Both the position numbers and the translations under genes were made by a program. 64,000 nt of DNA from Micromonospora echinospora (lineage in GTDB: Bacteria; Actinomycetota; Actinomycetes; Mycobacteriales; Micromonosporaceae). The notes beneath the pieces are model-generated. The model did not search any database, was not told where the DNA came from, and saw only the letters and a program-made list of their open reading frames with translations. Positions within the stretch are counted from its first letter, which is position 1. Every line of letters begins with the position of its first letter. Below are positions 7,403-24,222 of the stretch, one piece after another. The stretch spans positions 3,994,001 through 4,058,000 of the forward strand of contig NZ_JACHJC010000001.1 of assembly GCF_014203425.1 (NCBI RefSeq), in the 5' to 3' direction.

Positions 7403-7432
7403 TTGATTTGGCCATGGCCTTTGGTCTAGTGT
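7403..7432 (+). promoter_or_regulatory. Candidate promoter of the sigma factor gene
   Basis: TTGATT (7403-7408) and TAGTGT (7427-7432) are separated by 18 bases, a plausible -35/-10 pair about 55 bases upstream of the sigma factor start. The match is modest and was judged by eye. Confidence 0.35.
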
Positions 7433-7487
7433 GGCTGGCACGACCGGTGTGGGAGGCCACCCGTTCTCCGAGGACAGGAAGGGCAGC

Positions 7488-8297
7488 ATGACCACGATGA
7501 CCATGGCACCGACCGCGACCGAGGTGCAGCGCGCGCCGCAGACCGGTGAGGAGTCCCGTGCCAGCGAGCTGATCGCGGCGCTCGCCGCGCTGCCCGCCGG
7601 CCACCCGCAGCGGGCCGCCCTGCGCAACCAGGTCATCGAGGCGTGGCTGCCGCTGGCGAACCACCTGGCCGCCCGCTACAGCGGGCGCGGCGAGCCGGCC
7701 GGTGACCTGGCGCAGACCGCGGCGCTGGGCCTGATCAAGGCGGTGGACCGGTTCGACGCCTCGCGCGGCGTCGACTTCGCCGGGTTCGCCATCCCGACCA
7801 TCCTCGGTGAGATCAAGCGGCACTTCCGCGACCGCACCTGGAACATCCGGGTTCCGCGCCGCCTCCAGGAGCTGCGGCTGCGCATCTCCGAGGCGAACAG
7901 CACGCTGACCCAGACGCTCAACCGGGCCCCGACCGTCGCCGACATCGCCGCCCACCTCGACGTCACCGAGGAAGAGGTGCTCGAAGGTCTGGAAGGCGCC
8001 CGCGCCTACAACGCGGTGTCGCTGTCCACCCCGATCGGCGACGGCGACAGCGCCACCGAGCTGGGCGACACCCTCGGCGCCGAGGACAACGAGTACGAGC
8101 TGGCCGACCTGCGCGCCTCCCTGGGCCCGGCGCTGGCCACGCTCGACGAGCGCGAGCAGAAGATCCTCACGCTGCGCTTCTACGGCAACCTGACCCAGAG
8201 CGAGATCGCCGCTCGGGTCGGCGTCTCCCAGATGCACGTGTCCCGGCTGCTCGCCCGCGCCCTGACCAAGCTGCGCGGCCAGCTCACCGAGGCCTGA
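7488..8297 (+). CDS. SigB/SigF-family alternative sigma factor
   Basis: A 269-residue sigma-70 group 3 factor. Region 2 includes DLAQTAALGLIKAVDRFD, ending in the SigB/SigF-type FAIPTILGEIKRHFRD. Region 3 follows (about 120-180). Region 4 carries the helix-turn-helix LTQSEIAARVGVSQMHVSRLL at the C-terminus. Such factors drive general stress or developmental regulons and are controlled by anti-sigma kinases and STAS antagonists. No anti-sigma gene is adjacent, but the STAS operon at 3082-4614 is only 3 kb away. ATG 7488 follows AGGAAGGG at good spacing, and the upstream in-frame extension lacks such a site. Confidence 0.92.
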   Translation: MTTMTMAPTATEVQRAPQTGEESRASELIAALAALPAGHPQRAALRNQVIEAWLPLANHLAARYSGRGEPAGDLAQTAALGLIKAVDRFDASRGVDFAGFAIPTILGEIKRHFRDRTWNIRVPRRLQELRLRISEANSTLTQTLNRAPTVADIAAHLDVTEEEVLEGLEGARAYNAVSLSTPIGDGDSATELGDTLGAEDNEYELADLRASLGPALATLDEREQKILTLRFYGNLTQSEIAARVGVSQMHVSRLLARALTKLRGQLTEA

Positions 8298-8350: not shown

Positions 8351-10348
8351 TCACCAGTGCGAGGGCGGGGGCGGCGGTACCACCGGCGGGCGGTCGTCGC
8401 ACGTGATGGTGTTCGGCAGCAGCCACGGGGCCAGCCAGCCGCCGTCGTTGCCGCCGAGGTCGGTCAGGGTGAACTCCGACCCGGCCGGGGTGAAGTGGAA
8501 CGACCCGCAGTTGTTCACGCCGACCGCGCCCACGTGGCGGGCGTCGACGTCGGCGAAACGCGCCCCGCCGGCCGCGCGCGCGCTGACCACCGACGTCCCG
8601 GCGCCGTCGACCCGGATGCCGCGGAAGCGGACGTTGTCGATGCGGACCCGGTCCTTCACCGGCCAGTCGCTGACCAGCATGATCGCGTTGTAGGTGCTGT
8701 CCAGGTACGCGTCGCCGCTCACCAGGACGTCCGCGTCGATGCTGCGGTCGAGCGCGTAGAACCAGATCGCGCCGAGGCCGATGTTCCAGTTCAGGTCGTA
8801 CGTGCCGGCCCGCACGGTGGTGTTGCCGGTGATCCGCAGCCGGCCGGCGAACGGCTCCGCACCGAAGCGGGCGCCCACCTGGATCGCGCTGCCCTCGCGG
8901 ACCGGATCGGCGATCAGGTTGTGCGCGACGGTCAGGTCCGTGCCGCCGTACAGCGCGATGCCGTTGGCGAGCACCGGTGACTGCACGGTGTTGTACGCGA
9001 ACGTGTTCGACGCGTTCGCCGTCCCCTCCGACCACATCGCCAGCGCGTCGTCGCCGCTGTTGCGGACCACCGAGTTCGTCACCGAGGAGTGGGTGACGCC
9101 GGTGTGGAAGTTCAACCCGTCCGCGACCTGGTCCGCGATCACGGTGTTCGTGACCCGCAGCCCGGTCATCGGCCCGTCGAACCACATGCCGACCTTCGTG
9201 TGGTGCAGGTAGAGGCCGTCGATGGTGCTGTGGCTGAGCGCCCCGCCGATGGCGTTGACCTGGTCGGTGTCGATCCGCTCGCGTACGTCGCCCTCGATCG
9301 CGAAACCGGACAGGTGCACGTTGCTGCTGCCGCCGTCGGCGGCGTCGCGGCCGTAGAAGCCGACGCCCGTGTGCCGGGAGCCGTCGGGCGCGGGCGTGTC
9401 CAGCGCGACCTCACGCCCCCGCACGATCGTGTGCCAGCTGCCCGCCCCGGCGATCGTCACGTCGTCGACGACGATGTGCCGGTTGACCTGGTAGGTACCC
9501 GGCGGCAGGTAGAGCGGGCGGTCCACCCGTCGGGCGTGCGCGATCGCCCGGTCGAACGCGTCGGCGGACTCCCGCCGGCCGGTCGGGTCGGCGCCGAACG
9601 ACAGCGCGTTCACCGCGCGGGGGACCGCCCGGGGCGGCGCGACCAGATGCGCGTCCACCAGGTCGATCACCGTCCAGGCGGCGGCCGTGCCGCGCGGCGC
9701 GGTCAACCGGACCACCTCACCGGCCCGGTGGGTACGGCCGAGCAGCAGCCGCTGCTCCTCGTAGAAGTGGTGCGGCCGGAACGGCTTGGTGATCACCGGC
9801 GCGGGCGTGGTGGCCGCCGGGACGCAGGAGCACTCGGTGATCCACCAGTCCGGGTGCAGCAGGTCGGCGCCGGGGTCGTTGGTGAACGGGTACTGGTTGT
9901 AGAGCCAGGCGTACTGCGAGGTGAGCGTCACGGTGCGGGCGGGCGAGCGGCCGACGGAGACCCGCAGCGGCGCGGTGATCCCGCCGCCGCCCGGCGCGTC
10001 CGGGATGCTGTACCGCACGGTGAGCGCGTTCGTCGGCCGCGGGAGTGTCAGCTCGACGTACTGGCCGGGCAGCAGGCGCACGGCCCGGCGGCCGGACGCC
10101 TCACCTGCGAGTGCGTACGCCGACCGGTCCGGCCCGATCACGACGCCGGTGGTCCGGCCGTGCTCGGCCTCCTGCTCGACGTAGTCCACTGTGGCGCCGC
10201 GACCGGCAACCAGCGCGGGGTCGAGCCCGGCGCGTGTCACCACCGGGGCCGGTCCGCGCGGCGGGCCCGCCGCGGCGGCGCCGGGCGGGATGAGCAGGGC
10301 GGCGGTGACCAGCGCCGCCGCGAGGATCCTCGGCACGCTCCGCGACAT
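8351..10348 (-). CDS. Secreted GH87-type alpha-1,3-glucanase/mycodextranase, C-terminal module absent
   Basis: A 665-residue secreted enzyme. A signal peptide (about 1-28) is followed by a CBM6/35-like beta-sandwich (about 45-240, motif GRGATVDYVEQEAE), then a parallel beta-helix of GH87 type (about 255-645). The catalytic triad is recognisable from spacing: D410 in ADGLNFH and D433/D434 in GDDALAMW. This D-x22-DD spacing agrees with the three essential Asp reported for Bacillus and Paenibacillus alpha-1,3-glucanases. It ends in a short Pro run (PPVVPPPPPSHW), exactly where the paralogue at 17209 begins its linker and discoidin module. ATG 10348 gives a proper signal peptide; an in-frame ATG at 10414 is the alternative. 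It is divergent from the LacI gene. Confidence 0.85.
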   Translation of the reverse strand: MSRSVPRILAAALVTAALLIPPGAAAAGPPRGPAPVVTRAGLDPALVAGRGATVDYVEQEAEHGRTTGVVIGPDRSAYALAGEASGRRAVRLLPGQYVELTLPRPTNALTVRYSIPDAPGGGGITAPLRVSVGRSPARTVTLTSQYAWLYNQYPFTNDPGADLLHPDWWITECSCVPAATTPAPVITKPFRPHHFYEEQRLLLGRTHRAGEVVRLTAPRGTAAAWTVIDLVDAHLVAPPRAVPRAVNALSFGADPTGRRESADAFDRAIAHARRVDRPLYLPPGTYQVNRHIVVDDVTIAGAGSWHTIVRGREVALDTPAPDGSRHTGVGFYGRDAADGGSSNVHLSGFAIEGDVRERIDTDQVNAIGGALSHSTIDGLYLHHTKVGMWFDGPMTGLRVTNTVIADQVADGLNFHTGVTHSSVTNSVVRNSGDDALAMWSEGTANASNTFAYNTVQSPVLANGIALYGGTDLTVAHNLIADPVREGSAIQVGARFGAEPFAGRLRITGNTTVRAGTYDLNWNIGLGAIWFYALDRSIDADVLVSGDAYLDSTYNAIMLVSDWPVKDRVRIDNVRFRGIRVDGAGTSVVSARAAGGARFADVDARHVGAVGVNNCGSFHFTPAGSEFTLTDLGGNDGGWLAPWLLPNTITCDDRPPVVPPPPPSHW

Positions 10349-10515
10349 CGGAGCACCCACTTTCTCGGGGGACGGGTGGCCTCGGCGGCGCAGGCCATCG
10401 ACAAGGGTCCTCATGTTATTCCGGCGCTCTGTTCCCTTTCAAGCATCAATCTGCTCGCATCTTTCGGGCCGGTTGCCGCCCTTCGGGGCAAGAAGTGACC
10501 CGTCCGGTTGTTCAT

Positions 10516-10527
10516 TTCTTGCAAGAA
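10516..10527. promoter_or_regulatory. LacI operator, copy 1
   Basis: TTCTTGCAAGAA is a perfect 12-base palindrome, 20 bases upstream of the LacI start at 10548 and in the gap shared with the divergent GH87 gene. The central CG/GC-type symmetric core is typical of LacI-family operators. The related site at 11877 (CTTGCATGCAAG, also preceded by CATTTC) supports a common regulator, most simply the LacI protein encoded here. Confidence 0.65.
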
Positions 10528-10547
10528 TCCGACGTACGATTGCCGCC

Positions 10548-11549
10548 GTGACGAAGCGCCTGACCGAGGTCGCCCGCAAGGCGGGTGTCAGCGAGGCCAC
10601 CGTGAGCCGCGTACTGAACGGCCGCGGCGGCGTGTCCGAGGCGACCCGGACCGCCGTGCTGACCGCCCTCGACGTGCTCGGCTACGAGCGCCCGAGCAAG
10701 CTGCGCGGCGAACGCGCCCGCCTGGTCGGCCTGGTGCTTCCGGAGTTGCAGAACCCGATCTTCCCGGCCCTGGCCGAGGTGGTCACCGGATCCCTCGCCC
10801 AGCGCGGCTTCACCCCGGCGCTGTGCGCCCGCACCATCGGCGGCGTGCCGGAGTCCGGGTACGTGGAGATGTTGCTCGACCACCAGGTCAGCGGCGTCAT
10901 CTTCGCCGGTGGCTCGTACGCGCTCGCCGACGCCTCGCACGAGCACTACCGGCGCCTCACCGACCGGGGCCTGCCGGTGGTGCTGGTCAACGCCGGCGTC
11001 GAGGAACTGGGCTTCCCGCGCGTGTCCACCGACGACGCGGTCGCCGTCGAGCAGGCGTACGGGCACCTGCGCTCGCTCGGCCACGACCGGATCGGCCTGG
11101 TGCTCGGCCCGGCTGACCACGTGCCCTCGCGCCGCAAGCTCGACGCGATGGTCCGGGCCGCCGGCTGGGGAGACGACCGCTCCCTGGTGGAGCGGTCGAG
11201 CTTCTCGATGGAGGGGGCGCGGGTCGCCGCCACGAAGCTGATCGAGCGCGGCGTGACCGGCATCGTCTGCGCCAGCGACGTGCTCGCGCTGGGCACCATC
11301 CGGGCCGCCCGGCGCCTGGGCTGCGCGGTGCCGGCCGACGTCTCGGTGGTCGGCTTCGACGATTCGGCGTTCATGACCTGCACCGACCCGCCGCTGACCA
11401 CTGTGCGGCAGCCGATCGAGACCATGGGACAGGCCGCTGTGGACCTGCTGGTCACCCAGATCGAGGGCGCCGGGGTGCTGCACGACGAGCTGCTGTTCGA
11501 GCCCGAGCTGGTGGTACGCGGCTCCACCGCCCCCGCCCTCCGCCGCTGA
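10548..11549 (+). CDS. LacI-family regulator of the alpha-glucan locus
   Basis: A 333-residue LacI/GalR repressor. The N-terminal helix-turn-helix reads LTEVARKAGVSEATVSRVLN (about 4-23), with the hinge region near 45-58. The periplasmic-binding-protein-like sugar domain follows, with CASDVLALGTIRAARRLG and DVSVVGFDDSAF near the C-terminus. GTG 10548 lacks a strong ribosome site, so the transcript may be nearly leaderless. It lies between the divergent GH87 gene and the ABC importer. It probably binds the palindromes at 10516 and 11877 and is released by an oligosaccharide of the imported alpha-glucan, possibly nigerose or nigero-oligosaccharides. Confidence 0.92.
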   Translation: MTKRLTEVARKAGVSEATVSRVLNGRGGVSEATRTAVLTALDVLGYERPSKLRGERARLVGLVLPELQNPIFPALAEVVTGSLAQRGFTPALCARTIGGVPESGYVEMLLDHQVSGVIFAGGSYALADASHEHYRRLTDRGLPVVLVNAGVEELGFPRVSTDDAVAVEQAYGHLRSLGHDRIGLVLGPADHVPSRRKLDAMVRAAGWGDDRSLVERSSFSMEGARVAATKLIERGVTGIVCASDVLALGTIRAARRLGCAVPADVSVVGFDDSAFMTCTDPPLTTVRQPIETMGQAAVDLLVTQIEGAGVLHDELLFEPELVVRGSTAPALRR

Positions 11550-11683
11550 CCCCCGGGCCTACTCACTCACCCACCTCGGCCGGCTACGCCCCGTCGGGCG
11601 GTGCCCGGCACTGCCGCCCCGGCGCCGGCGGCCCTCGACCTCTCCGGTGTCCCGTCCCTCGTGGAGCCACACAAACGCCGCAT

Positions 11684-11762
11684 CCGTCGATCTTGGAGTT
11701 GTGGCGCCCGGAATGTGGCCCTAATCCCGGTATCTGAGGTGCCACAACCCCAAGATCGACGG
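11684..11762. repeat. REP-like palindromic repeat, subfamily A, copy 1
   Basis: A 79-base element with 22-base terminal arms differing at one position. The left arm begins CCGTCGATCTTGGAGTTGTG; the right arm ends CAAGATCGACGG. The same arm sequence returns at 24151-24222. It is non-coding and lies between LacI and the ABC operon. Confidence 0.8.
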
Positions 11763-11876
11763 TTTCCCGACGGCGACTGCGGCGTCGGGAGGCCGTGCAC
11801 CAGGGCTGAGGCCGTATGGCCGCGCTCCCACGGTGGCAGCTGGCCGCCTCCGGGCTTTCCGTCGTCGAGTTCATTT

Positions 11877-11888
11877 CTTGCATGCAAG
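11877..11888. promoter_or_regulatory. LacI operator, copy 2, before ABC operon
   Basis: CTTGCATGCAAG is a perfect 12-base palindrome about 180 bases before the binding-protein gene. It shares the CATTTCTTGCA half with the site at 10516. It probably controls the importer/GH13/GH87 operon. Confidence 0.6.
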
Positions 11889-12068
11889 CGTCCGCATCTT
11901 GCTGCGATTCGTTCGCGTCGCTACAGTGACTCCACTCACACCTGACCCGGGCCGCGGTTTCCGGAGGCAGGGCGCGTGCCGGCTGCCGTTGCACCACCAG
12001 AGGCAGCCGCGCGGTCACCGCACATCAGTGAAGGCCATGGATACACCCGTTCCCGAAGGGATGGACAG

Positions 12069-13445
12069 ATGTCCGTACCGCAGTATCGGAAGGTCGCGGC
12101 GCTCGCGCTCGCGACCGGCCTCGGGCTCAGCCTTGCGGCGTGCTCCACCAAGAGTGACGACAGCAGCGACGCCGGCGGCAAGGTCACCATCACCGTCGAC
12201 TGCCAGCCGGTCGGCGCGCAGAAGGAGCTGCTGAAGAACTGGAACGACGACGTCGCCGAGTTCCAGCGGCAGAACCCGGACATCGTCGTCAAGAGCGTCA
12301 GCGTCGGCGAGCAGTGCAACAACCCGCCGGACTTCACCGCCCGCCTCGCCGGCGGCACCGTCACCGACGTCTTCTACGGATACATGACCGACGTGCAGCA
12401 GGTGCTGGACTCCGGCCAGGCGATGGACATCGGCCAGTACGCCACGAAGGACACCATCCCCACCTGGGACAGCGTCGACCCGGCGCTCAAGGAGGTCTTC
12501 ACCGACGGCGGCAAGCTGTACGCCGTACCGGTGAAGAACTACTCGATGGGCCTGATCTACAACAAGGCGCTGTTCCAGCGGGCCGGGCTCGACGTCGACA
12601 ACCCGCCGAAGACCTGGCCGGAGGTGCGGGCCGCGGCCAAGAAGATCGCCGCGCTCGGCGACGGCATCGCCGGGTACTCCGAGTACAGCGCCGGCAACAC
12701 CGGCGGCTGGCACTTCACCTCGCTGCTCTACTCCCAGGGCGGCCAGGTGCTCAGCGCCGACGGCAAGAAGGCCGACTTCAACAACGCGATGGGCAAGCAG
12801 GTCCTGCAGAACCTCAAGGACATGCGGTACGGCGACAACAGCATGGGCAGCCGGCAGCTGCTCCAGTGGGGTGACCTGCTCACCAACGCCGGCGCCGGCA
12901 AGGTCGGCATGTTCATCGGCGCGCCGGACGCGACCCAGGCGATCGTCAGCCAGTTCCAGGGCAAATACCAGGACTGGGCGATGGGCCCGCTGCCCGGCCA
13001 GGACGGGCAGGCCAAAGCCACGCTGGGCGGCGGCGAGGGCTACTTCTTCAAGGAGGGCCTGAGCCCGGAGCAGGTCAAGGCCGGACTGAAGTGGCTCGCG
13101 TACCAGAAGCTGACGCCTGGTAAGGGCCAGTTCGACTACGTGCGCGCCAAGCCGCAGAACTATCCGGTCGGCCTGCCCCAGCCACTGCTGTTCACGAACG
13201 GCAGCGACGCGCAGAAGCAGGAGCTGGACCTGCGCAAGGCAAACGCCAACGTGGACACCACCAACTTCGCGGTCTTCGAGGCCAACCCGGTGCCGATCAA
13301 GGGGGAGCCGCGCAACGCGCAGGCCGTCTACGCGGTGCTCGACGCGGCGATGTCCGGGGTGCTGACCAACCCGAACGCGAACATCGACGCGCTGCTCAAG
13401 ACCGCCGAGGACAAGGTCAACCAGCTGCTGGCCGCCGGCAGCTGA
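12069..13445 (+). CDS. ABC sugar transporter, substrate-binding lipoprotein
   Basis: A 458-residue family 1 extracellular solute-binding protein. A signal peptide ends in the lipobox SLAAC (lipid-modified C25). A typical two-lobe binding protein follows, with WPEVRAAAKKIAALG at about 185 and an aromatic-rich cleft. It should capture oligosaccharides released by the secreted GH87 enzymes and deliver them to the permeases at 13506 and 14469. ATG 12069 has GAAGGG at about 8-10 bases; upstream in-frame extensions do not start with a signal peptide. It is the first gene of the operon and is followed by a strong hairpin at 13453, which may keep its mRNA more abundant than the permease part. No ATPase is encoded nearby, so a shared MsiK-type ATPase is likely. 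Confidence 0.93.
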   Translation: MSVPQYRKVAALALATGLGLSLAACSTKSDDSSDAGGKVTITVDCQPVGAQKELLKNWNDDVAEFQRQNPDIVVKSVSVGEQCNNPPDFTARLAGGTVTDVFYGYMTDVQQVLDSGQAMDIGQYATKDTIPTWDSVDPALKEVFTDGGKLYAVPVKNYSMGLIYNKALFQRAGLDVDNPPKTWPEVRAAAKKIAALGDGIAGYSEYSAGNTGGWHFTSLLYSQGGQVLSADGKKADFNNAMGKQVLQNLKDMRYGDNSMGSRQLLQWGDLLTNAGAGKVGMFIGAPDATQAIVSQFQGKYQDWAMGPLPGQDGQAKATLGGGEGYFFKEGLSPEQVKAGLKWLAYQKLTPGKGQFDYVRAKPQNYPVGLPQPLLFTNGSDAQKQELDLRKANANVDTTNFAVFEANPVPIKGEPRNAQAVYAVLDAAMSGVLTNPNANIDALLKTAEDKVNQLLAAGS

Positions 13446-13452
13446 CCCGACC

Positions 13453-13484
13453 GGAGGTGGGGCCGGCGAACCGGCCCCACCTCC
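13453..13484 (+). terminator. Intercistronic hairpin (attenuator/stabiliser)
   Basis: GGAGGTGGGGCCGG (13453-13466) pairs perfectly with CCGGCCCCACCTCC (13471-13484) around the tetraloop CGAA. It lies between binding-protein and permease genes, where such stems usually cause partial termination or protect the upstream mRNA. Confidence 0.75.
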
Positions 13485-13505
13485 CCGAGCACCGCAGGAG
13501 TCGCC

Positions 13506-14465
13506 TTGGCGCTCACCACCGCCCCCGGCGCCACCCGCCGTACCGGCCCGGTCGCGCCGACGCCGTCGCGTACCGCCGCACGCCGCGCCGGCCTCGGCCG
13601 CAAGGTACGGGACAACCTCACCGGGCACGCGTTCCTCATCGGCGCGGTCGCGTGCTTCGCCGTCTTCTCCTGGTACCCGATGGTCCGCGGCGTCGTGATG
13701 AGCTTCCAGCGCACCCGGCGCGGCGAGACCACCTGGGTCGGCTGGGACAACTACAGCCGGATCATCGCCGATCCGAGCTTCTGGACCGCCTGGAAGAACA
13801 CGTTCGTCTTCACCGGCCTGGCGCTGGTGCTCGGCTACGCCGTGCCGTTCTTCGTGGCGATCCTGCTCAACGAGCTGCGCCACGCCAAGGGCTACCTGCG
13901 GGTGCTCGTCTACCTGCCGGTGATGCTGCCGCCGGCGTCCGCGTTGTTCCTGTTCAAGTTCTACGCGTACGACCCGAGCGAGGCGGGGCTGTTCAACGCG
14001 ATCCTCACCGCGCTGGGACTGCCCACGTCGGAGTGGATGCAGTCGCCCACGATGACGATGCCGGCCATGGTGATCGCGTCGACCTGGATGAACATGGGCG
14101 GCGCCGTGCTGATCTACCTGGCCGCGTTGCAGAACATCCCCGGCGAGCTGTACGAGGCCGCCGAGATCGACGGCGCCGGGGTGTGGCGGCGCATCCTGCA
14201 CGTGACGATCCCGCAGACCCGGCTGATCCTGGCGCTGCTGGCGATGCTCCAGATCGTCGCGACCATGCAGTTGTTCATCGAGCCGTTGATCCTCGCCAAC
14301 GGCGCCGGCACGCAGGACTCGGCGACCTCCGTGGCGTACCTGATCTACCAGCACGGGTTCTTCCAGAACGACCTCAACGGCGCCGCCGCGCTCGGCGTGA
14401 TCATGCTGGTGGTGCTGGCCGGGTTCTCCGCCGTCTACCTGCGACTGACCGCGAGACAGGACTAG
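13506..14465 (+). CDS. ABC sugar transporter permease, MalF type
   Basis: A 319-residue inner-membrane permease with six predicted transmembrane helices. The cytoplasmic EAA loop (ELYEAAEIDGAGVWRRI) contacts the ATPase. A basic N-terminal tail of about 45 residues precedes the first helix. TTG 13506 is used, with GCAGGAG five bases upstream. It pairs with the MalG-type permease that starts three bases after its stop, forming the channel for oligosaccharide import. It is co-transcribed with the binding protein and the GH13 enzyme. Confidence 0.93.
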   Translation: MALTTAPGATRRTGPVAPTPSRTAARRAGLGRKVRDNLTGHAFLIGAVACFAVFSWYPMVRGVVMSFQRTRRGETTWVGWDNYSRIIADPSFWTAWKNTFVFTGLALVLGYAVPFFVAILLNELRHAKGYLRVLVYLPVMLPPASALFLFKFYAYDPSEAGLFNAILTALGLPTSEWMQSPTMTMPAMVIASTWMNMGGAVLIYLAALQNIPGELYEAAEIDGAGVWRRILHVTIPQTRLILALLAMLQIVATMQLFIEPLILANGAGTQDSATSVAYLIYQHGFFQNDLNGAAALGVIMLVVLAGFSAVYLRLTARQD

Positions 14466-14468
14466 GAC

Positions 14469-15356
14469 ATGGCCGCCGACAGCACCACCCGCACCCTCAT
14501 CTCCCACGCCCAGCTACGCCGTGGTCGCGGCCGCGTCCTCTACTGGGCGGTGCTCTCCGTGGTCGTCGCCGGGTTCACGCTGGTCTTCCTCGGCCCGCTG
14601 TACTGGATGGTCACCGGCGCGCTGAAGTCCGGCCAGGAGATCGCCCAGACCCCGCCGACGCTGTTCCCGCGCGATCCGCAGCCGCGCAACTACGTGGACG
14701 CCTGGACCAACCTGGAGCTGGCGAAGCTGCTGTTCAACACGTTCTACTACGCGACCGGGGCGGTGCTGTTCCAGCTCGTGTTCGACACCGCCGCGGCGTA
14801 CGCGCTGTCGAAGCTGCGCCCGGTGCTGGGCAAGCTGATCCTCGGCATGATGCTGGCGACGCTGATGATCCCGGCGATGGTGCTCATCGTCCCGCAGTAC
14901 GTCACGGTGATCGACCTGCCGATCGTGCACGTCAACCTGCTCGACTCGCCGTTCGCGATCTGGCTGCCGCTGGTGGCGAACGCGTTCAACATCTTCCTGC
15001 TGAAACGGTTCTTCGACTCGATCCCGGAGGACCTGATGGCCGCCGCCGTGATGGACGGCGCCTCGCCGCTGCGCACGCTCTGGTCGATAGTCCTGCCGAT
15101 GTCCCGCCCGATCCTCGGCGTGGTGGCGATCTTCGCGGTGACGGCGGTCTGGAAGGACTTCCTCTGGCCGAAGCTGGTCATGCCGTCGCCGGAGACGCGG
15201 ACCGTCAGCGTCGGCATCTACGCCTTCGCCGGCGGCACCCCGATGAACGTGGTCATCGCCGCGTCGGTGATCGCCGCGATCCCCACTGTCGTGCTGTTCC
15301 TGATCTTCCAGCGCAACATCATGTCCGGCCTGACCACCGGCGGCCTCAAGGGCTGA
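14469..15356 (+). CDS. ABC sugar transporter permease, MalG type
   Basis: A 295-residue permease with six transmembrane helices. The EAA-type loop reads DLMAAAVMDGASPLRTLW. It follows the MalF-type permease with a three-base gap, and the N-terminus has the short cytoplasmic stretch usual for the MalG subgroup. It completes the heterodimeric channel of the importer. The GH13 alpha-glucosidase follows after 68 bases, so imported sugars are cleaved in the same operon. Confidence 0.93.
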   Translation: MAADSTTRTLISHAQLRRGRGRVLYWAVLSVVVAGFTLVFLGPLYWMVTGALKSGQEIAQTPPTLFPRDPQPRNYVDAWTNLELAKLLFNTFYYATGAVLFQLVFDTAAAYALSKLRPVLGKLILGMMLATLMIPAMVLIVPQYVTVIDLPIVHVNLLDSPFAIWLPLVANAFNIFLLKRFFDSIPEDLMAAAVMDGASPLRTLWSIVLPMSRPILGVVAIFAVTAVWKDFLWPKLVMPSPETRTVSVGIYAFAGGTPMNVVIAASVIAAIPTVVLFLIFQRNIMSGLTTGGLKG

Positions 15357-15424
15357 CCGGGCGCCGCCGCAAGCCCGCCGCATGCCCGCCGCCGCAGTAC
15401 CGACCCCGCAGAAAGCAGGTGCCC

Positions 15425-17056
15425 GTGTCCATGGCCGACAACAGCCCGTGGTGGCGCTCCGCGGTTATCTACCAGGTCTATCCGCGCAGCTTCGCCGACG
15501 GAAACGGCGACGGGATCGGCGACGTCGCCGGCATCCGGTCCCGCCTGGAGCACCTCGCCGCGCTCGGCGTCGACGCGATCTGGTTCAGCCCCTGGTACCC
15601 GTCGCCGATGGCCGACGCCGGCTACGACGTGTCCGACTACCGCGACATCGACCCGGTCTTCGGCACGCTCGCCGAGGTGGAGGCGCTGATCGCCGAGGCG
15701 CACGCGCTCGGCATCCGCAGCATCGTCGACGTGGTGCCCAACCACTGCTCCGACGCGCACCAGTGGTTCCGGGCCGCCCTGGACGGCGGGCCGGGCGCGC
15801 CCGAGCGGGACCTGTTCTGGTTCCGCCCCGGCCGGGGACCGGGCGGTGAGCTGCCGCCCACCGACTGGACCGGCGAGTTCGGCGGACCGACCTGGACCCG
15901 CACCACCGACCCGGACGGCACGCCCGGCGACTGGTACCTGCACCTGTTCGCCCCGCAGCAACCCGACTTCAACTGGGACCACCCCCGGGTACGCGACGAG
16001 TTCGAGGACATCCTGCGGTTCTGGTTCGAGCGGGGCGTGGACGGCATCCGCATCGACTCGGCCGGGCTGCTGGTCAAGGACGGCGCGCTGCCGGAGGTCC
16101 ACCCGGACCGGCCGCACCCGTTCCGCGACCGGGACGGCGTGCATGACGTCTACCGCGCCTGGCGGCGCATCGCCGACTCCTACCCGGGCGGGCGGGCGCT
16201 GGTCGGCGAGGTGTGGCTGCCCGACCGGGAGCGGTTCGCGAACTACCTGCGCCCGGACGAGCTGCACACCGCGTTCAACTTTGACTTCCTCGGCTGCGCC
16301 TGGGACGCCACGGCGCTGCGGGACAGCATCAACGGCACGCTCGCCGCGCACGCCCCGGTCGGCGCCCCGGCCACCTGGGTGCTGTCCAACCACGACGTGA
16401 CCCGCCACGTCACCCGGTACGGCCGCGCCGACACCCGGTTCAGCTTCGCCGCCAAGCGTGAGGGCATCCCCACCGACCTGGAGCTGGGTACCCGACGGGC
16501 CCGCGCCGCCGCGTTGCTGTCCCTCGCGCTGCCCGGCGCAGCCTACGTCTACCAGGGCGAGGAGCTGGGCCTCTGGGAGGTCGAGGACATCCCGTACGAG
16601 CTGCGGCAGGACCCGATGTGGGAGCGGTCCGGGCGGGTCGACCCGGGCCGCGACGGCTGCCGGGTGCCGCTGCCCTGGCAGGGCGACACGCCGCCGTTCG
16701 GGTTCAGCCCCGATGGCGCGGCCGCCGCGCCCTGGTTGCCGCAGCCGGCCGACTGGAAGGACCGCACCGTCCGCGCCCAGACCGGCGACCCGCACTCGAT
16801 GCTGGAGCTGTACCGGGCCGCGCTGGCGTTGCGCCGTGCCGAACCCGCGCTCGGCGACGGCACGCTGGCCTGGCTGCCCGCACCGGACGGCGTGCTCGCG
16901 TTCGCCCGCGAGCCCGGCTTCACCTGCCTGGTCAATTTGCGCGACGCAGCAGTGCCGCTGCCCGGGCACGACGAGCTGCTGCTCGCCAGCGGGCCACTCG
17001 ACGACGACCGGCTGCCGCCGGACACCGCGGTCTGGCTGCGTACCCGATCGGCCTGA
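15425..17056 (+). CDS. GH13 alpha-glucosidase, cytoplasmic
   Basis: A 543-residue GH13 enzyme of the oligo-1,6-glucosidase/alpha-glucosidase subgroup, without signal peptide. The family regions are clear: VVPNHC (region I), nucleophile D211 in GIRIDSAG, acid/base E262 in VGEVW, and D324 in SNHDVTRH. The N-terminus WWRSAVIYQVYPRSF and the segment GDGIGDVAGI are typical. It should hydrolyse imported alpha-gluco-oligosaccharides to glucose. The linkage preference (1,3, 1,4 or 1,6) cannot be read here, but the neighbours suggest nigero-oligosaccharides. GTG 15425 has AGCAGG at five bases spacing; ATG 15431 is two codons later. A perfect hairpin follows at 17059-17094. Confidence 0.93.
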   Translation: MSMADNSPWWRSAVIYQVYPRSFADGNGDGIGDVAGIRSRLEHLAALGVDAIWFSPWYPSPMADAGYDVSDYRDIDPVFGTLAEVEALIAEAHALGIRSIVDVVPNHCSDAHQWFRAALDGGPGAPERDLFWFRPGRGPGGELPPTDWTGEFGGPTWTRTTDPDGTPGDWYLHLFAPQQPDFNWDHPRVRDEFEDILRFWFERGVDGIRIDSAGLLVKDGALPEVHPDRPHPFRDRDGVHDVYRAWRRIADSYPGGRALVGEVWLPDRERFANYLRPDELHTAFNFDFLGCAWDATALRDSINGTLAAHAPVGAPATWVLSNHDVTRHVTRYGRADTRFSFAAKREGIPTDLELGTRRARAAALLSLALPGAAYVYQGEELGLWEVEDIPYELRQDPMWERSGRVDPGRDGCRVPLPWQGDTPPFGFSPDGAAAAPWLPQPADWKDRTVRAQTGDPHSMLELYRAALALRRAEPALGDGTLAWLPAPDGVLAFAREPGFTCLVNLRDAAVPLPGHDELLLASGPLDDDRLPPDTAVWLRTRSA

Positions 17057-17058
17057 CC

Positions 17059-17094
17059 GCGGCGCCGGCGGCCCCGTCCCGCCGCCGGCGCCGC
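17059..17094 (+). terminator. Hairpin between GH13 and GH87 genes
   Basis: GCGGCGCCGGCGGC (17059-17072) pairs perfectly with GCCGCCGGCGCCGC (17081-17094) around an 8-base loop, just after the GH13 stop. It probably gives partial termination, so the secreted enzymes downstream may be expressed at a different level from the importer. Confidence 0.65.
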
Positions 17095-17208
17095 AGCGAC
17101 ACCCGGCGGCCCGTCCCGGCCGCCGCCACGCCGCACACCTGGGGAGGAGGAAGGAGAGGCAACGCCGCACGGGGGATCTGGCCACCGACGAAAGGGAGCA
17201 CACCCCGC

Positions 17209-19617
17209 ATGGCCGAGCACCGCACCGCCCACCGCCACCGCACCACAGGCGTGGCCGCCCTGGCCGCCGCCGCGCTCGCCGCCTCGACACTCGTCGTGGT
17301 GGCGCTGACCACGACCGCCACTCCGGCGTCCGCCGCCGGACTGTCCCCGTTCGACATCGCCGGCCGCGGCGCCACCGTGCCGTTCCGGGAGCAGGAGGCC
17401 GAGCAGGCCGCCCACAACGGCACGAAGATCGGCCCCGACCGGCGCTACGGCACGCTGCCGTCCGAGGCGTCCGGCCGCGAGGCGGTCACCCTCGACGCCG
17501 TCGGCGAGTACGTCGAGTTCACGCTCACCGCCCCGGCGAACGCGGTCACGTTCCGGTACAGCCTGCCGGACAACGCCGCCGGCACCGGCCGGGACGCCAC
17601 CATCGACCTGCGCGCCAACGGCACGCTGGTCAAGGCGGTGCCGGTCACCTCCCGGTACGGCTGGTACTACGGCGGCTACCCGTTCAACAACAACCCGGGC
17701 GACACCAACCCGCACCACTTCTACGACGAGACCCGCACCATGTTCGGCGCCACCTACCCGGCCGGCACGAAGATCCGCCTCCAGGTCTCCTCGACCGCCC
17801 AGTCACCCACGTTCACCATCGACCTGGCCGACTTCGAGCTGGTCGGGGCGCAGATCACCAAGCCGTCCGGCGTGCTGGACGTGGTGACCGACTTCGGCGC
17901 CGACCCGACCGGCGCCACCGACTCGACGGCGAAATTCCAGGCCGCAGTGGACGCCGGCAAGGCGCAGGGCCGGGCGGTGTGGATCCCGGCCGGCACGTTC
18001 ACGCTCTGGGACCACGTGGTGGTCGACGGCGTGACGTTGCGCGGCGCCGGCCCCTGGTACTCGGTGCTCGGCGGCCGGCACCCCACCGACCGCAAGCGTG
18101 CCGCCGGCATCTACGGCAAGTACGTGCCGGGCGGCGGCTACTCCGGCGAGATCCGGCCGCACGAGGCCGGCGGGCCCAGCCGCAACGTCACGCTGCGGGA
18201 CTTCGCGATCATCGGCGACATCCGCGAACGCGTGGACGAGGACCAGGTCAACGCCGTCGGCGGCGCGATGACGAACTCGGTGGTGGACAACCTGTGGTTG
18301 CAGCACACCAAGGTCGGCGCCTGGATGGACGGCCCGATGGACAACTTCACCATCCGCAACAGCCGCATCCTCGACCAGACCGCCGACGGGGTGAACTTCC
18401 ACTGGGGCGTCACCAACTCCACAGTCACCAACACGTTCGTCCGCAACACCGGTGACGACGCGCTGGCCATGTGGGCGCAGAGCGTGCCGAACGTCGGCAA
18501 CTCCTTCACCCGCAACACCATCGGCGTCACGATCCTGGCCAATCACCTGGTCACCTACGGCGGGCGGGACATCACCATCGCCGACAACGTCACCGCCGAC
18601 TCGGTCACCAACGGCGGCGGCATCCACGTGGCCAACCGCTACCCGGGCGTCACCGGGCCGACGGCGGTGGCCGGCACGATCACGGTGGCCCGCAACACGC
18701 TGATCCGTAACGGCAACTCCGACTACAACTGGCAGTTCGGCGTGGGCGCGATCTGGTTCTCCGCGCTCAACGAGCCGATCCAGGGTGCCACCGTCACCGT
18801 GACCGACACCGACATCCTGGACAGCTCGTACGCGGCGCTGCACTGGATCGAGGGGCAGACCAGCGGCATCTCGTTCGACAACGTGCGCATCGACGGCGCG
18901 GGCACGTACGCGCTCCAGGTGCAGGCGCCCAGCCAGGTCCGGTTCACGAACGTGCGGGCCACCGGCATCGCCCAGTCCAACCCGATCCACAACTGCGTCG
19001 GCAGCGGCTTCCAGATCACCCAGGGCACCGGTAACTCCGGCTGGTACACGTCCACCCCGTACTGCGGGCCGTGGCCGCAGCCGCAGTGGGGCAACGGCCC
19101 GTCCAGCCCGCCGCCCACCAGCCCGCCGCCGCCCACCACCGCGCCGCCGACGACAGCGCCCCCCACCACGGCACCACCGACCACGCCGCCGCCGGCCGGC
19201 GGGAACCTGGCCCTGGGCCTGCCGGCGACCGCCACCAGCACCACCCAGACGTACGCCGCCGGCAACGCTGTCGACGGCAACGCCGCCAGCTACTGGGAGA
19301 GCGCCAACAACGCGTTCCCGCAGTCGGTGACGGTCGACCTGGGCAGCGCCCGGCCGGTGGCCCGGGTGGTGCTGAAGCTGCCCCCGTCGGCGGCCTGGCA
19401 GACCCGTACCCAGACAGTGGCGGTGCTCGGCTCCACCGACGGCTCGTCGTTCTCGACGCTCAAGACGGCGGCGGGCTACACGTTCGACCCGGCGGGCGGC
19501 AACAGCGTGTCGATCGCGCTGCCCGCCGGTGACAGCCGCTTCGTGCGGCTGACCTTCACCGGCAACACCGGCTGGCCGGCCGGCCAGCTGTCCGAGTTCG
19601 AGGTGTACGCCTCCTGA
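17209..19617 (+). CDS. Secreted GH87-type alpha-1,3-glucanase with C-terminal discoidin module
   Basis: An 802-residue secreted enzyme. A signal peptide (about 1-43) is followed by a CBM6/35-like domain (about 48-220), the GH87 beta-helix (about 222-620), a Pro/Thr linker with TTAPP repeats (about 630-662) and an F5/8 discoidin/CBM32 domain (about 664-802). Catalytic residues by spacing and context are D393 (ADGVNFH) and D416/D417 (GDDALAMW). GH87 enzymes are endo-alpha-1,3-glucanases or mycodextranases; discoidin modules in such enzymes bind insoluble alpha-1,3-glucan. ATG 17209 follows GGGAG at ten bases. It is a paralogue of the 8351 and 19717 products and lies in the importer operon. A purine-rich GGGGAGGAGGAAGGAGAGG about 50 bases upstream is unexplained. 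Confidence 0.9.
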   Translation: MAEHRTAHRHRTTGVAALAAAALAASTLVVVALTTTATPASAAGLSPFDIAGRGATVPFREQEAEQAAHNGTKIGPDRRYGTLPSEASGREAVTLDAVGEYVEFTLTAPANAVTFRYSLPDNAAGTGRDATIDLRANGTLVKAVPVTSRYGWYYGGYPFNNNPGDTNPHHFYDETRTMFGATYPAGTKIRLQVSSTAQSPTFTIDLADFELVGAQITKPSGVLDVVTDFGADPTGATDSTAKFQAAVDAGKAQGRAVWIPAGTFTLWDHVVVDGVTLRGAGPWYSVLGGRHPTDRKRAAGIYGKYVPGGGYSGEIRPHEAGGPSRNVTLRDFAIIGDIRERVDEDQVNAVGGAMTNSVVDNLWLQHTKVGAWMDGPMDNFTIRNSRILDQTADGVNFHWGVTNSTVTNTFVRNTGDDALAMWAQSVPNVGNSFTRNTIGVTILANHLVTYGGRDITIADNVTADSVTNGGGIHVANRYPGVTGPTAVAGTITVARNTLIRNGNSDYNWQFGVGAIWFSALNEPIQGATVTVTDTDILDSSYAALHWIEGQTSGISFDNVRIDGAGTYALQVQAPSQVRFTNVRATGIAQSNPIHNCVGSGFQITQGTGNSGWYTSTPYCGPWPQPQWGNGPSSPPPTSPPPPTTAPPTTAPPTTAPPTTPPPAGGNLALGLPATATSTTQTYAAGNAVDGNAASYWESANNAFPQSVTVDLGSARPVARVVLKLPPSAAWQTRTQTVAVLGSTDGSSFSTLKTAAGYTFDPAGGNSVSIALPAGDSRFVRLTFTGNTGWPAGQLSEFEVYAS

Positions 19618-19620
19618 CCC

Positions 19621-19656
19621 GGCGCGGCGGGGGCCACCGCCGGTCCCCGCCGCGCC
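19621..19656 (+). terminator. Hairpin after GH87 gene
   Basis: GGCGCGGCGGGG (19621-19632) pairs with CCCCGCCGCGCC (19645-19656) around a 12-base loop that can itself fold. It may reduce read-through into the next gene. Confidence 0.6.
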
Positions 19657-19716
19657 ACCGCACCCCCACCCCCGAACGCCTCTCCACCTCCCCCGGGAAG
19701 AAGGTGTCCGTCCACC

Positions 19717-22700
19717 ATGTCCAGACTCCGTACCGGAATCGTCGCGGTGCTCGCTGCGGTCGGCCTGGTCGTCACCGCGGCCCCCGCCCCACCGGCCCTC
19801 GCCGCCGGCGGCCCGAACCTCGCCGCCGGGCGCACCGCCGCCGCCAGCAGCGTCAACGGCCCCTACGTCGCGGCCAACCTGACCGACGGCAACCAGGGCA
19901 GCTACTGGGAGAGCAGCGGCGCGCTGCCGCAGTGGGCGCAGGTCGACCTCGGCACCGGCCGCGCCGTCGACCAGGTCGTGCTCAAACTCCCGGCCGCCTG
20001 GGAGGCCCGCAACCAGACGCTGTCCGTGCAGGCCAGCGCCGACGGCAGCGGCTTCACCACTGTCGTCGCGTCCGCCGCCCGCACGTTCAGCCCGGCCGCC
20101 GCCAACACCGTGACGCTCGGCTTCACCGCCACCGACGCCCGCTACCTGCGGGTCGTGATTACCGCGAACACCGGCTGGGCCGCCGCGCAGCTCGCCGACC
20201 TGGAGGTGTACGGCGCGGCCACCTCCTCGACCAACCTGGCGCTCGGCCGGACCATGACCGAGAGCGGCCACGCCGACGTGTACGGCGCGGGCAACGCCAA
20301 CGACGGCAACGCGGCCACCTACTGGGAGAGCCCGAACAACGCGTTCCCGCAGTGGATCCAGGCCGACCTGGGCGCCGCCACCAGCGTCAACCGGCTGGTG
20401 CTGCGGCTGCCGTCCGGCTGGGGCGCACGCACCCAGACGATCACCGTGCAGGGCAGCACGAACGGCTCCACGTTCGGCACGCTCGTCGGCTCCGCGTCGT
20501 ACGCGTTCGACCCGGGCGGCGGCAACACGGTGACGGTCACCGTGCCCACCGCCTCCACCCGCCACCTACGGCTGCTGTTCACCGCGAACAGCGCCTGGCC
20601 CGCCGGGCAGCTCGCCGAGCTGGAGATCTACGGCCCGGTCACCGGCGACACCCAGGCGCCCAGCGCGCCGGGCAATCTCGCGTTCACCGAGCCGTCCACC
20701 GACCAGGTGCGGCTGACCTGGACCGCGTCGAGCGACAACGTCGGCGTCACCGGTTACGACGTGTACGCGAACGGCGTGCTGCGCACCACTGTCGGCGGCT
20801 CCACGCTGACGTACACCGACACCCAGCCGGCCGGGACCACAGTGGCCTACCACGTGCGGGCGCGGGACGCGGCCGGGAACGTGTCGGCGAACAGCAACAC
20901 GGTGACCCGTACCGGCAACACCGGTGACACGGTTGCCCCGACCGCGCCCGGCAACCTGGCCTTCACCCAGCCGGCGAGCGGGCAGGTCCGGCTGACCTGG
21001 ACCGCGTCGAGCGACAACGTCGGCGTCACCGGCTACGAGGTGTACGCCAACGGCACGCTGCGCACCACAGTCAGCGGCTCCACGCTCACGTACACCGACA
21101 GCCAGCCGGACAACGCCACCGTCTCGTACCACGTGCGGGCCCGTGACGCCGCCGGGAACGTGTCGGCGAACAGCAACACCGTCACCCGTACCGGCAGCAG
21201 CACGGGCGGCACCAACCTGGCGGCCGGCAAGCCCGCCACCGCGTCGTCGATGGTGCACGTGTTCGCCGCCGCCAACGCCGTCGACAACGACGTCACCACG
21301 TACTGGGAGGGCGCGCCCGGCGCATACCCGAGCACGCTCACCGTCGCGCTCGGCGCCAACGCCGCCATCAGCGCGGTAGTGGTGAAGCTGAACCCGGACC
21401 CGGCGTGGGGCGCGCGCACCCAGACGTTCCAGGTGCTCGGCCGGGAACAGTCCGCGTCCGGGTTCACCAGCCTGGCCGGCTCCGCCACGTACTCCTTCAA
21501 CCCGAACAGCGCCAACACGGTGACCGTCCCGGTCTCGGCGACCGCCGCCGACGTCCGGCTCCAGTTCACCGCGAACTCCGGCTCCTCCAACGGCCAGGTC
21601 GCCGAACTCCAGGTCATCGGCGTCCCGGCGCCGAACCCGGACCTCACCGTCACCGCCGTCACCGCCGCGCCGTCCGCGCCGGTGGAGACAGACGCGATCA
21701 CGCTGTCCGCCACCGTGCGCAACGCCGGCACCGCGGCCTCCGCCGCCACCACTGTCAACCTCTACCTGGGTACGACGAAGGTCGGCACCGCCGCCGTCGG
21801 CGCGCTCGCCGCCGGGGCGTCGAGCACCGTCTCGGCGACCATCGGCGTACGCGACGCCGGCAGCTACCCGCTCACCGCGAAGGTCGACGAGGCGAACGCG
21901 GTGATCGAGCAGAACGAGGCGAACAACTCGTACACCAGCCCGACCCCGCTGACTGTCAGCCCGGTCGCCAGCTCCGACCTGGTCGCCTCCGCCGTCACCT
22001 GGTCACCCGGCACGCCGAGCGCCGGCGCGGCCGTCTCCTTCGCGGTGACGCTGCGCAACCAGGGCACCATCGCGTCGGCGAGCGGCGCGCACGGCATCAC
22101 GCTGACAGTGCGCGACCAGTCCGGCGCGGTCGTCCGCACGCTCACCGCCTCGTACAGCGGCACGATCGCGGCCGGGGGCACCGCCGGCCCGGTGTCGCTT
22201 GGTACCTGGACGGCCGCCAACGGCCGGTACACGGTGCGGGTGGTGCTCGCCGACGACACCAATGAACTGCCGGTGAAGCGGCAGAACAACACGAGCGAGC
22301 GCGCGCTGTTCGTCGGCCGCGGGGCGAACCTGCCGTACGACGCCTACGAGGCCGAGGACGGCACGACCGGCGGCGGCGCGCAGGTGATCGGCCCGAACCG
22401 CACCATCGGCGACCTCGCCGGGGAGGCGTCCGGCCGCCGCGCGGTCACGCTCAACACCACCGGCGCGTACGTCGAGTGGACCACCCGCTCGGCAGCGAAT
22501 GCGCTGGTCGCCCGCTTCTCCATCCCGGATGCCCCGGGCGGCGGCGGGATCGACTCGACGATCAACGTCTACGTCAACGGGGTGCTGCACAAGCCGATGA
22601 GCCTCACCTCGAAGCACATCTGGCTGTACGGCGCCGAGGCCGGGCCGAGCGACTCGCCGAGCGCGGGCGCGCCCCGGCACCTGTACGACGAGGCGAACGT

Positions 22701-24003
22701 GCTGCTCGACGCCACGGTCCCGGCGGGCAGCCGGATCCGGCTCCAGAAGGACCCGGCGAACACCACCACGTACGCGATCGACTTCGTCAACACCGAACTG
22801 GTGTCGCCGCGCGCCAACCCCGACCCGGCCCGCTACAAGGTGCCCACCGGGTTCAGCCACGCCGATGTGCAGAACGCGCTCGACGCGGTACGGATGGACA
22901 CCACCGGCACGCTGATCGGCGTCTACCTGCCCACCGGCACGTACGAGACGGCGCAGAAGTTCCAGGTGTACGGCAAGGCGGTGCAGGTCGTCGGCGCCGG
23001 CATGTGGTTCACCCGGTTCCAGACGCCACGCAACCAGCAGAACACCGACGCCGGCTTCCGGGTCGAGTCCTCGGCGAGCGGGTCGACCTTCGCGCACCTG
23101 GCGTTCTTCGGCAACTACACCAACCGGATCGACGGTCCCGGCAAGGTGTGGGGCGAGCTGAAGGACGTGGACGACCTGACGCTGGACAGCGTCTGGGTGG
23201 AGCACACCGTCTGCGCGTACTGGGGGGTGAGCGTGGACGGGCTGACCATCCGGGACAGCCGGTTCCGCAACACCTTCGCCGACGCCGTGAACATGACAAA
23301 CGGCAGCACGAACAACCTGGTCACCAACTCGGAGGGCCGCTCCAACGGCGACGACGCGTTCGCGTTGTTCTCCGCCACCGACCAGGGCGGCTCCGGCGGC
23401 AACCACGGCAACGTGTTCGAGAACCTGACCGCCACGCTGACCTGGCGGGCGGCCGGGCTGGCGGTGTACGGCGGCCACGACAACGTGTTCCGCAACCTGT
23501 ACATCGCCGACCAGCTCACGTACTCGGGCATCACGATCAGCTCGCTGGACTTCGGCTACCCGTTCGTCGGGTTCGGCGCCAGCCCGCCCACCCGGTTCGA
23601 GAACATCTCGCTGATCCGCTCCGGCGGGCACTTCTGGGGGGCTCAGACGTTCCCCGCGATGTGGTTGTTCTCCGCGTCGAAGGAGTTCCGTGGCATCCGG
23701 GTGAGCGATGTGGACATCGTCGATCCGACGTACTCGGGGATCATGTTCCAGACCAAGTACAACGGCAGCCAGCCGGAGAACCCGATCACCGACACGGTGC
23801 TGACGAACGTGTCGATCTCCGGGGCGCGGCGCAGCGGTGACGCCTTCGACGCGAAGTCCGGCTTCGGTATCTGGGCAAACGAGATGCCCGAGGCGGGCCA
23901 GGGCCCCGCTGTCGGCGCGGCGACCTTCACCAACCTCCGCTTGACCGACAACGCCCAGGACATCAAGAACACCACAACAACCTTCACCCTCACCCGCAAC
24001 TAA
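19717..24003 (+). CDS. Giant multimodular secreted GH87-like glucanase
   Basis: A 1428-residue secreted protein, the largest in the window. Order of domains: signal peptide (1-30); discoidin/CBM32 (33-166); discoidin (168-307); FN3 (309-400); FN3 (402-493); a third discoidin (497-638); two CARDB-like beta-sandwiches (641-748, 751-862); a CBM6/35-like domain (865-1031); GH87-like beta-helix (1034-1428). The two FN3 repeats are close duplicates at DNA level. The catalytic spacing holds: D1189, then D1212/D1213 (NGDDAFALF). The loop after the first Asp differs strongly (ADAVNMTNGS in place of ADGVNFHWGV), so specificity may differ. It looks designed to hold on to insoluble glucan such as fungal cell wall. 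ATG 19717 follows GAAGAAGG. It probably belongs to the importer operon. Confidence 0.88.
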   Translation: MSRLRTGIVAVLAAVGLVVTAAPAPPALAAGGPNLAAGRTAAASSVNGPYVAANLTDGNQGSYWESSGALPQWAQVDLGTGRAVDQVVLKLPAAWEARNQTLSVQASADGSGFTTVVASAARTFSPAAANTVTLGFTATDARYLRVVITANTGWAAAQLADLEVYGAATSSTNLALGRTMTESGHADVYGAGNANDGNAATYWESPNNAFPQWIQADLGAATSVNRLVLRLPSGWGARTQTITVQGSTNGSTFGTLVGSASYAFDPGGGNTVTVTVPTASTRHLRLLFTANSAWPAGQLAELEIYGPVTGDTQAPSAPGNLAFTEPSTDQVRLTWTASSDNVGVTGYDVYANGVLRTTVGGSTLTYTDTQPAGTTVAYHVRARDAAGNVSANSNTVTRTGNTGDTVAPTAPGNLAFTQPASGQVRLTWTASSDNVGVTGYEVYANGTLRTTVSGSTLTYTDSQPDNATVSYHVRARDAAGNVSANSNTVTRTGSSTGGTNLAAGKPATASSMVHVFAAANAVDNDVTTYWEGAPGAYPSTLTVALGANAAISAVVVKLNPDPAWGARTQTFQVLGREQSASGFTSLAGSATYSFNPNSANTVTVPVSATAADVRLQFTANSGSSNGQVAELQVIGVPAPNPDLTVTAVTAAPSAPVETDAITLSATVRNAGTAASAATTVNLYLGTTKVGTAAVGALAAGASSTVSATIGVRDAGSYPLTAKVDEANAVIEQNEANNSYTSPTPLTVSPVASSDLVASAVTWSPGTPSAGAAVSFAVTLRNQGTIASASGAHGITLTVRDQSGAVVRTLTASYSGTIAAGGTAGPVSLGTWTAANGRYTVRVVLADDTNELPVKRQNNTSERALFVGRGANLPYDAYEAEDGTTGGGAQVIGPNRTIGDLAGEASGRRAVTLNTTGAYVEWTTRSAANALVARFSIPDAPGGGGIDSTINVYVNGVLHKPMSLTSKHIWLYGAEAGPSDSPSAGAPRHLYDEANVLLDATVPAGSRIRLQKDPANTTTYAIDFVNTELVSPRANPDPARYKVPTGFSHADVQNALDAVRMDTTGTLIGVYLPTGTYETAQKFQVYGKAVQVVGAGMWFTRFQTPRNQQNTDAGFRVESSASGSTFAHLAFFGNYTNRIDGPGKVWGELKDVDDLTLDSVWVEHTVCAYWGVSVDGLTIRDSRFRNTFADAVNMTNGSTNNLVTNSEGRSNGDDAFALFSATDQGGSGGNHGNVFENLTATLTWRAAGLAVYGGHDNVFRNLYIADQLTYSGITISSLDFGYPFVGFGASPPTRFENISLIRSGGHFWGAQTFPAMWLFSASKEFRGIRVSDVDIVDPTYSGIMFQTKYNGSQPENPITDTVLTNVSISGARRSGDAFDAKSGFGIWANEMPEAGQGPAVGAATFTNLRLTDNAQDIKNTTTTFTLTRN

Positions 24004-24150: not shown

Positions 24151-24222
24151 CGATCTTGGAGTTGTGGCACCTCTGATAGCGGGGCGAAGTCGACAATATG
24201 AGGCACCACAAGTCCAAGATCG
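24151..24222. repeat. REP-like palindromic repeat, subfamily A, copy 2
   Basis: A 72-base inverted repeat. The left arm CGATCTTGGAGTTGTGG equals that of the copy at 11684; the right arm ends CCACAAGTCCAAGATCG. Arms match at 19 of 22 positions. It lies between two convergent genes. Confidence 0.8.

Follow-up and report, generated by a model that had tools for sequence, protein, structure and literature searches.

Two described systems come closest to the locus reported here. In Lachnoclostridium phytofermentans, a gene cluster holds a GH65 nigerose phosphorylase, a GH31_u1 enzyme, an ATP-binding cassette (ABC) transporter and LacI regulators, according to the accessible part of its description (PMC9061262), and a predicted locus of Prevotella melaninogenica, as presented in excerpts of a 2026 report, contains GH87 and GH97 enzymes and a GH71/99 enzyme (PMC13421300). 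The same excerpts state that, to the knowledge of their authors, no GH87-containing locus has been experimentally characterised. Because these two accounts precede ours, the idea of a GH87-linked alpha-1,3-glucan locus is not new. Here we analyse a 64,000-nucleotide stretch of Micromonospora echinospora DNA (hereafter the window; contig NZ_JACHJC010000001.1, positions 3,994,001 to 4,058,000, from a genome of 7.13 Mb on a single contig), in which genes for three GH87 enzymes (GH87-1, GH87-2 and GH87-3) stand with genes for a LacI-family regulator, a sugar importer and a GH13 enzyme. From sequence comparison, we consider it probable that this is a nutrient-acquisition locus for alpha-1,3-linked glucans, of which mutan and the glucan of fungal cell walls are examples; the accessible text of PMC11475409 places alpha-1,3-glucan in the walls of some fungi. 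We infer the substrate of the locus and its induction, and propose the following route. Three apparently secreted enzymes, assigned to GH87 by sequence, would cut the insoluble polymer; the binding protein and two permeases would import short oligosaccharides using an ATPase encoded elsewhere; the cytoplasmic GH13 enzyme would free glucose; and the LacI protein, acting through what are only candidate operators, would repress the locus until imported sugar binds to it.

The initial annotation had recognised the three enzymes by the D-x22-DD spacing of GH87 catalytic residues and had named profile searches as the check. In Pfam searches, all three proteins exceed the curated cut-off (27 bits) of both GH87 catalytic domain models, PF22815 and PF22816, with scores, for the open reading frames as first listed, of 110.1 and 71.5 bits (GH87-1), 163 and 65.7 bits (GH87-2) and 254 and 354.5 bits (GH87-3). 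The best PDB relative of GH87-1 (E value 5e-91, 309.4 bits) and of GH87-2 (1.1e-114, 387.9 bits) is 7c7d, described in the accessible literature as an alpha-1,3-glucanase from Streptomyces thermodiastaticus, and that of GH87-3 is 6k0m (5e-122, 412.1 bits). We take 6k0m to be Agl-FH1; its PDB listing says only alpha-1,3-glucanase. PMC12394665 gives no PDB name for 6k0m. The D-x22-DD spacing was borne out as well: it occurs exactly once in each protein (residues 410, 393 and 1189, respectively), within the stretch that aligns to 6k0m or 7c7d, and we take its aspartates to be the catalytic residues of the family. The role of the GH87 catalytic aspartates is described in the accessible part of PMC10696023. 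Of three further proteins of the locus examined for the motif, LacI has one match and the remaining two, the binding protein and GH13, have none, so the motif alone would not suffice for a GH87 assignment. Judged by eye, the N-termini of all three enzymes are signal-like. The best 120 relatives listed for GH87-1 include a Micromonospora sp. B006 protein with 97% identity to it and M. chalcea proteins whose identity reaches 96%.

The LacI gene, the ABC importer parts, the GH13 enzyme and the three GH87 proteins that had been annotated were all found, each backed by Pfam matches, and the binding protein and two permeases have the Pfam matches of a CUT1 importer. That annotation had also called the locus complete. 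The enzymes, regulator, binding protein and permeases are indeed present, but no ATPase gene was detected among the locus proteins scanned with Pfam, so 'complete' is an overstatement. Not all CUT1 importers require an ATPase in the same operon, and in actinobacteria lone ATPases serve several importers. The genome contains three PF17912 (MalK-type) matches, all outside the locus. The one at position 25857 fits a UgpC-type ATPase model, and the 3.2 kb around it hold no match to the permeases or binding protein of the window; on these two grounds we regard it as a candidate shared ATPase. The SusC/SusD pair of a Bacteroidota-type polysaccharide utilization locus had no Pfam match among the 18 open reading frames scanned. 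In the GH13 protein (PF00128, 318 bits in a longer open reading frame), residues D209, E260 and D322, presumably the catalytic D/E/D, are invariant across 17 sequences. Its best PDB relatives are 8yif and 8yie (535.7 bits), both titled 'Alpha-glucosidase'; the accessible parts of two docking papers describe 8yie as an alpha-glucosidase and say nothing further. A predicted structure built on 17 closely similar sequences had a mean predicted local distance difference test (pLDDT) score of 62 and was not used as evidence.

Across the genus, the importer is strongly linked with GH87. PF22816 matches occur in 42 of 61 Micromonospora genomes and an orthologue of the binding protein (>890 bits) in 43; the orthologue is present in all 42 GH87-bearing genomes and absent from 18 of the 19 without GH87 (Fisher p 1.4e-14, shared ancestry ignored). 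Weaker homologues of the binding protein occur in all 61. At least one GH87 gene lies within 16 kb of the orthologue in 39/43 genomes (three genes in 10, two in 19 and one in 10), a count made on 122 PF22816 rows, the 7 omitted rows being fragments of genes already listed or on other contigs. The other four genomes comprise three with GH87 on other contigs and one, G191, considered below. Among 200 genomes of the family, PF22816 was matched in 141 and the binding protein (E ≤1e-30) in 147; where both were present (n = 112), the strongest GH87 lies within 16 kb of the binding protein in 65. This family count uses only the strongest GH87 row (at least 224 bits) and binding-protein rows of at least about 377 bits. 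The genus 16-kb count and the 112-genome family count are the frequency estimates unbiased by choice of loci.

We also compared gene arrangement in 121 loci: 40 fetched regions, the best 80 of 538 loci found with GH87b (GH87-2), and the window. The 40 regions were chosen for having binding protein and GH87 close together on one contig (G191 excepted) or were hand-picked from both lists. All five core genes are present in 85 of the 121 loci, or 73 distinct loci once duplicates are removed. GH13 is followed by GH87b and then GH87c in 52/73 (some of the rest run into a contig end or lack one gene), and 69/73 have at least one GH87. As the loci were mostly chosen through GH87, these two fractions describe arrangement, not frequency. 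One locus (L052, from G150) is rearranged: its importer and GH13 genes point towards an inverted GH87c gene, with lacI and GH87a beyond it.

The initial annotation had held that GH87 genes are usually reported alone or as pairs, which would make the locus notable. Among the best 80 of the 538 GH87b-found loci, 'usually alone' fits Streptomyces, where none of 29 loci had a core gene above 200 bits (up to 10 kb per side; 22 stretches of at least 20 kb), and one of two Kitasatospora loci had one. Outside these two genera, by contrast, 47 of 49 loci carry all five core genes; the locus is therefore unexceptional among its relatives. A binding-protein homologue (best 46–54% identical) is nevertheless present in all 23 Streptomyces and Kitasatospora genomes searched, out of 31, and in 8 of 12 importer regions from these genera (12 of 28 listed) a GH87 catalytic match lies nearby, of differing kinds and in differing places. 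In two Kitasatospora loci (L176 and L177) the importer is less similar (binding protein 43–44% identical), and a GH87 sharing about 40% identity with GH87b sits between permease and GH13.

Two forms of the importer block, about 46% alike, occur at these loci. In type 1, found in 65 of the 85 loci (56 distinct), the binding protein is 75–100% identical to that of the window; in type 2, found in 20 of the 85 (17 distinct), the binding protein is 45–56% and the permeases are 52–69% identical, with LacI at 68–89% and GH13 at 64–77%. Both forms also adjoin similar regulators outside Micromonospora: one locus (L114) has LacI at 81%, the binding protein at 87% and GH13 at 70% identity, and another (L155) has 80%, 45% and 74%, respectively. 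The simplest reading of these identities is that one importer block has replaced the other in situ, with similar LacI and GH13 genes on either side. More tentatively, the locus may be modular, an alpha-1,3-glucan system whose whole binding-protein–permease block is swapped between conserved LacI and enzymes while the CTTGC-type control region is kept; different combinations of GH87 and importer might in that case distinguish lineages specialised on different glucans of fungal or bacterial origin, a suggestion that we hold with some doubt.

In the window, GH87-1 lies on the minus strand and is followed on the plus strand by lacI, the binding-protein gene, the two permease genes, GH13, GH87-2 and GH87-3 (Table 1). 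The G+C fraction is 0.68–0.75 in the locus and 0.68–0.78 in the whole window.

Table 1. Features of the locus, in window coordinates. Likely starts of GH87-1 (10348, or 10414), LacI (10548), the binding protein (12069), GH13 (15431) and GH87-2 (17209) were picked by eye.
Feature	Position	Strand	Description
GH87-1 (GH87a)	8351..10348	-	665 amino acids, secreted-looking, divergent from lacI; alternative start 10414
12-bp perfect palindrome TTCTTGCAAGAA, candidate operator	10516..10527	.	upstream of lacI
LacI-family regulator	10548..11549	+	333 amino acids; PF00356, PF13377
CTTGC-type half-site direct repeat, candidate	11877..11902	+	upstream of binding-protein gene
Solute-binding lipoprotein, CUT1-type sugar importer	12069..13445	+	458 amino acids; PF01547; lipobox-like LAAC
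ABC permease F	13506..14465	+	PF00528
ABC permease G	14469..15356	+	PF00528
GH13 alpha-glucosidase-like enzyme	15431..17056	+	541 amino acids; PF00128; no obvious signal peptide
GH87-2 (GH87b)	17209..19617	+	802 amino acids, secreted-looking; catalytic domain, then C-terminal F5/8 type C domain
GH87-3 (GH87c)	19717..24003	+	1428 amino acids, secreted-looking; F5/8 type C, fn3 and CARDB modules precede catalytic domain

Two similar copies of an inverted-repeat element of about 71 bp lie in the interval separating lacI from the binding-protein gene (11688–11758) and directly past GH87-3 (24151–24222); the element has four half-site matches against 0.02 expected and resembles a small repeated element. 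A sigma-70 family factor (regions 2, 3 and 4; 7431–8297) adjoins GH87-1. Copies more than 90% identical to it occur in 4 of 40 relatives' regions, many of which end short of that point. A sigma-70 promoter scan picked out a single promoter-like site, close to GH87-1, where shuffled sequences gave 0.4.

Two sequence patterns may take part in control by LacI. The palindrome TTCTTGCAAGAA (0.02 expected in the window) is perfect in 17 of the 73 distinct loci, and compared with shuffles its matches are in excess upstream of lacI and, to a smaller extent, upstream of the binding-protein gene, with hardly any or no excess upstream of GH13 and GH87b. Allowing one mismatch at most, it has a single match in the 7.1-Mb genome; the same pattern read backwards as a control also has one, so that single match is in itself no enrichment. 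The second pattern, in which CTTGC-type half-sites recur as a direct repeat at a distance of 21 bp, is present in 68/73 distinct loci (54 of 56 type-1 and 14 of 17 type-2), although it was written after viewing the same 73 loci and the shuffles ignore relatedness. Among 12 regions not used to define it, in which a longer stretch was searched, four have the repeat, all at the expected spacing (shuffle expectation 0.01), and eight do not. A likely −35 element coincides with the downstream half of the repeat, and a TATAAT-like hexamer (at least 4/6 positions) follows 17 nucleotides on in 62 of the 73 loci. Given its post hoc definition, its presence in only 4/12 regions elsewhere and the overlap of one half with the −35, the repeat is only a candidate regulatory site. 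Its CTTGC core resembles the AcrC/MalR half-site CTTGC(A/T)G, as given in the accessible text of PMC5526262.

Several observations weigh against a nutrient-acquisition locus for alpha-1,3-linked glucans. The genome G191 has lacI, the importer and GH13 (locus L053) and no GH87 in that stretch or, at an E-value threshold of 0.001, in the genome, and in 4 of the 73 distinct core loci the stretch is devoid of GH87. In the family, the strongest GH87 lies farther away on the same contig in 16/112 genomes and on another contig in 31/112, and 4 of the 12 Streptomyces and Kitasatospora importer regions have no GH87 catalytic match nearby. The nearest solved relative of the binding protein, 7bvt (E value 1.4e-21, a remote similarity), takes an alpha-1,4/1,6 cyclic sugar, being described in the accessible part of PMC7676653 as a cyclic maltosyl-maltose binding protein.

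Within the alpha-1,3 reading, which also takes in nigeran, there is a narrower case that overlaps it. Nigeran occurs in fungi, and the main target might be nigeran or another mixed alpha-1,3/1,4-glucan, with GH87-1 and GH87-2 acting as mycodextranases and GH13 taking alpha-1,4-containing fragments. Some close relatives of both enzymes (best 120 listed for each) are named 'mycodextranase' in public records, and mycodextranases are inactive on linear alpha-1,3 chains, according to PMC13421300; fragments containing alpha-1,4 links would also be a fitting substrate for a GH13 alpha-glucosidase. Those record names are probably automatic, however, and 7c7d, the nearest solved relative of GH87-1 and GH87-2, is called an alpha-1,3-glucanase. 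We regard this case as possible but do not favour it.

It is unlikely that the importer, GH13 and LacI form a general starch or maltodextrin system to which the GH87 genes are mere neighbours. A paralogue of LacI (55.7% identical) does stand divergent from importer genes at L179, another GH13 locus of the same genome, and both the AcrC/MalR-like core of the candidate operators and the core loci without GH87 would fit such a system. Yet the genome has two other loci in which a GH13 gene (about 54% identical) lies beside a LacI gene and permeases; the present locus is therefore not the sole alpha-glucoside system, which argues against it as the general maltodextrin system. The co-occurrence of importer and GH87 across the genus, and the recurrence of different GH87 types next to the importer in Streptomycetaceae, point the same way. 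Less likely still is that the enzymes attack living fungi with sugar uptake as a by-product: live Aspergillus mycelia lost their alpha-1,3-glucan staining after treatment with a GH87 enzyme from Flavobacterium (PMC10696023), but linkage to a sugar-type regulator, an importer and an intracellular glucosidase speaks for nutrition, and attack and nutrition are compatible, neither ruling out the other.

If the nutrient-acquisition reading is true, the locus offers a Gram-positive pathway, amenable to genetic work, for a fungal and biofilm polymer that is poorly understood; its regulator, importer and intracellular enzyme would all be open to testing. A search by titles and abstract openings, with most subscription journals outside it, found no published account of this locus, and the breadth of the actinobacterial form, its sets of GH87 with GH13 and its two importer forms are apparently undescribed. 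Like AcrC/MalR-type regulation (PMC5526262), the locus has a LacI-family protein, CTTGC-type half-sites and a regulator beside importer genes; unlike it, the sites here are candidates, whereas AcrC and MalR, in the accessible text, act on acarbose, maltodextrin or amylase genes. The GH87 catalytic domains align with 7c7d and 6k0m over most of their length and keep D-x22-DD, but the accessory modules differ, and the accessible literature treats 7c7d and 6k0m as single enzymes. As in the predicted P. melaninogenica locus, GH87 shares its locus with other glycoside hydrolases, a regulator and genes for uptake; the Prevotella locus, as far as its excerpted description goes, differs in having a TonB-dependent transporter, a surface binding protein and one GH87. 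The L. phytofermentans cluster likewise brings together an ABC transporter, LacI and enzymes acting on sugars with alpha-1,3 linkage, and a putative GH87 lies close to its GH65 gene, but it relies on GH65 and GH31 where the present locus has GH13, and the accessible part of its account mentions one GH87 where the Micromonospora locus has three.

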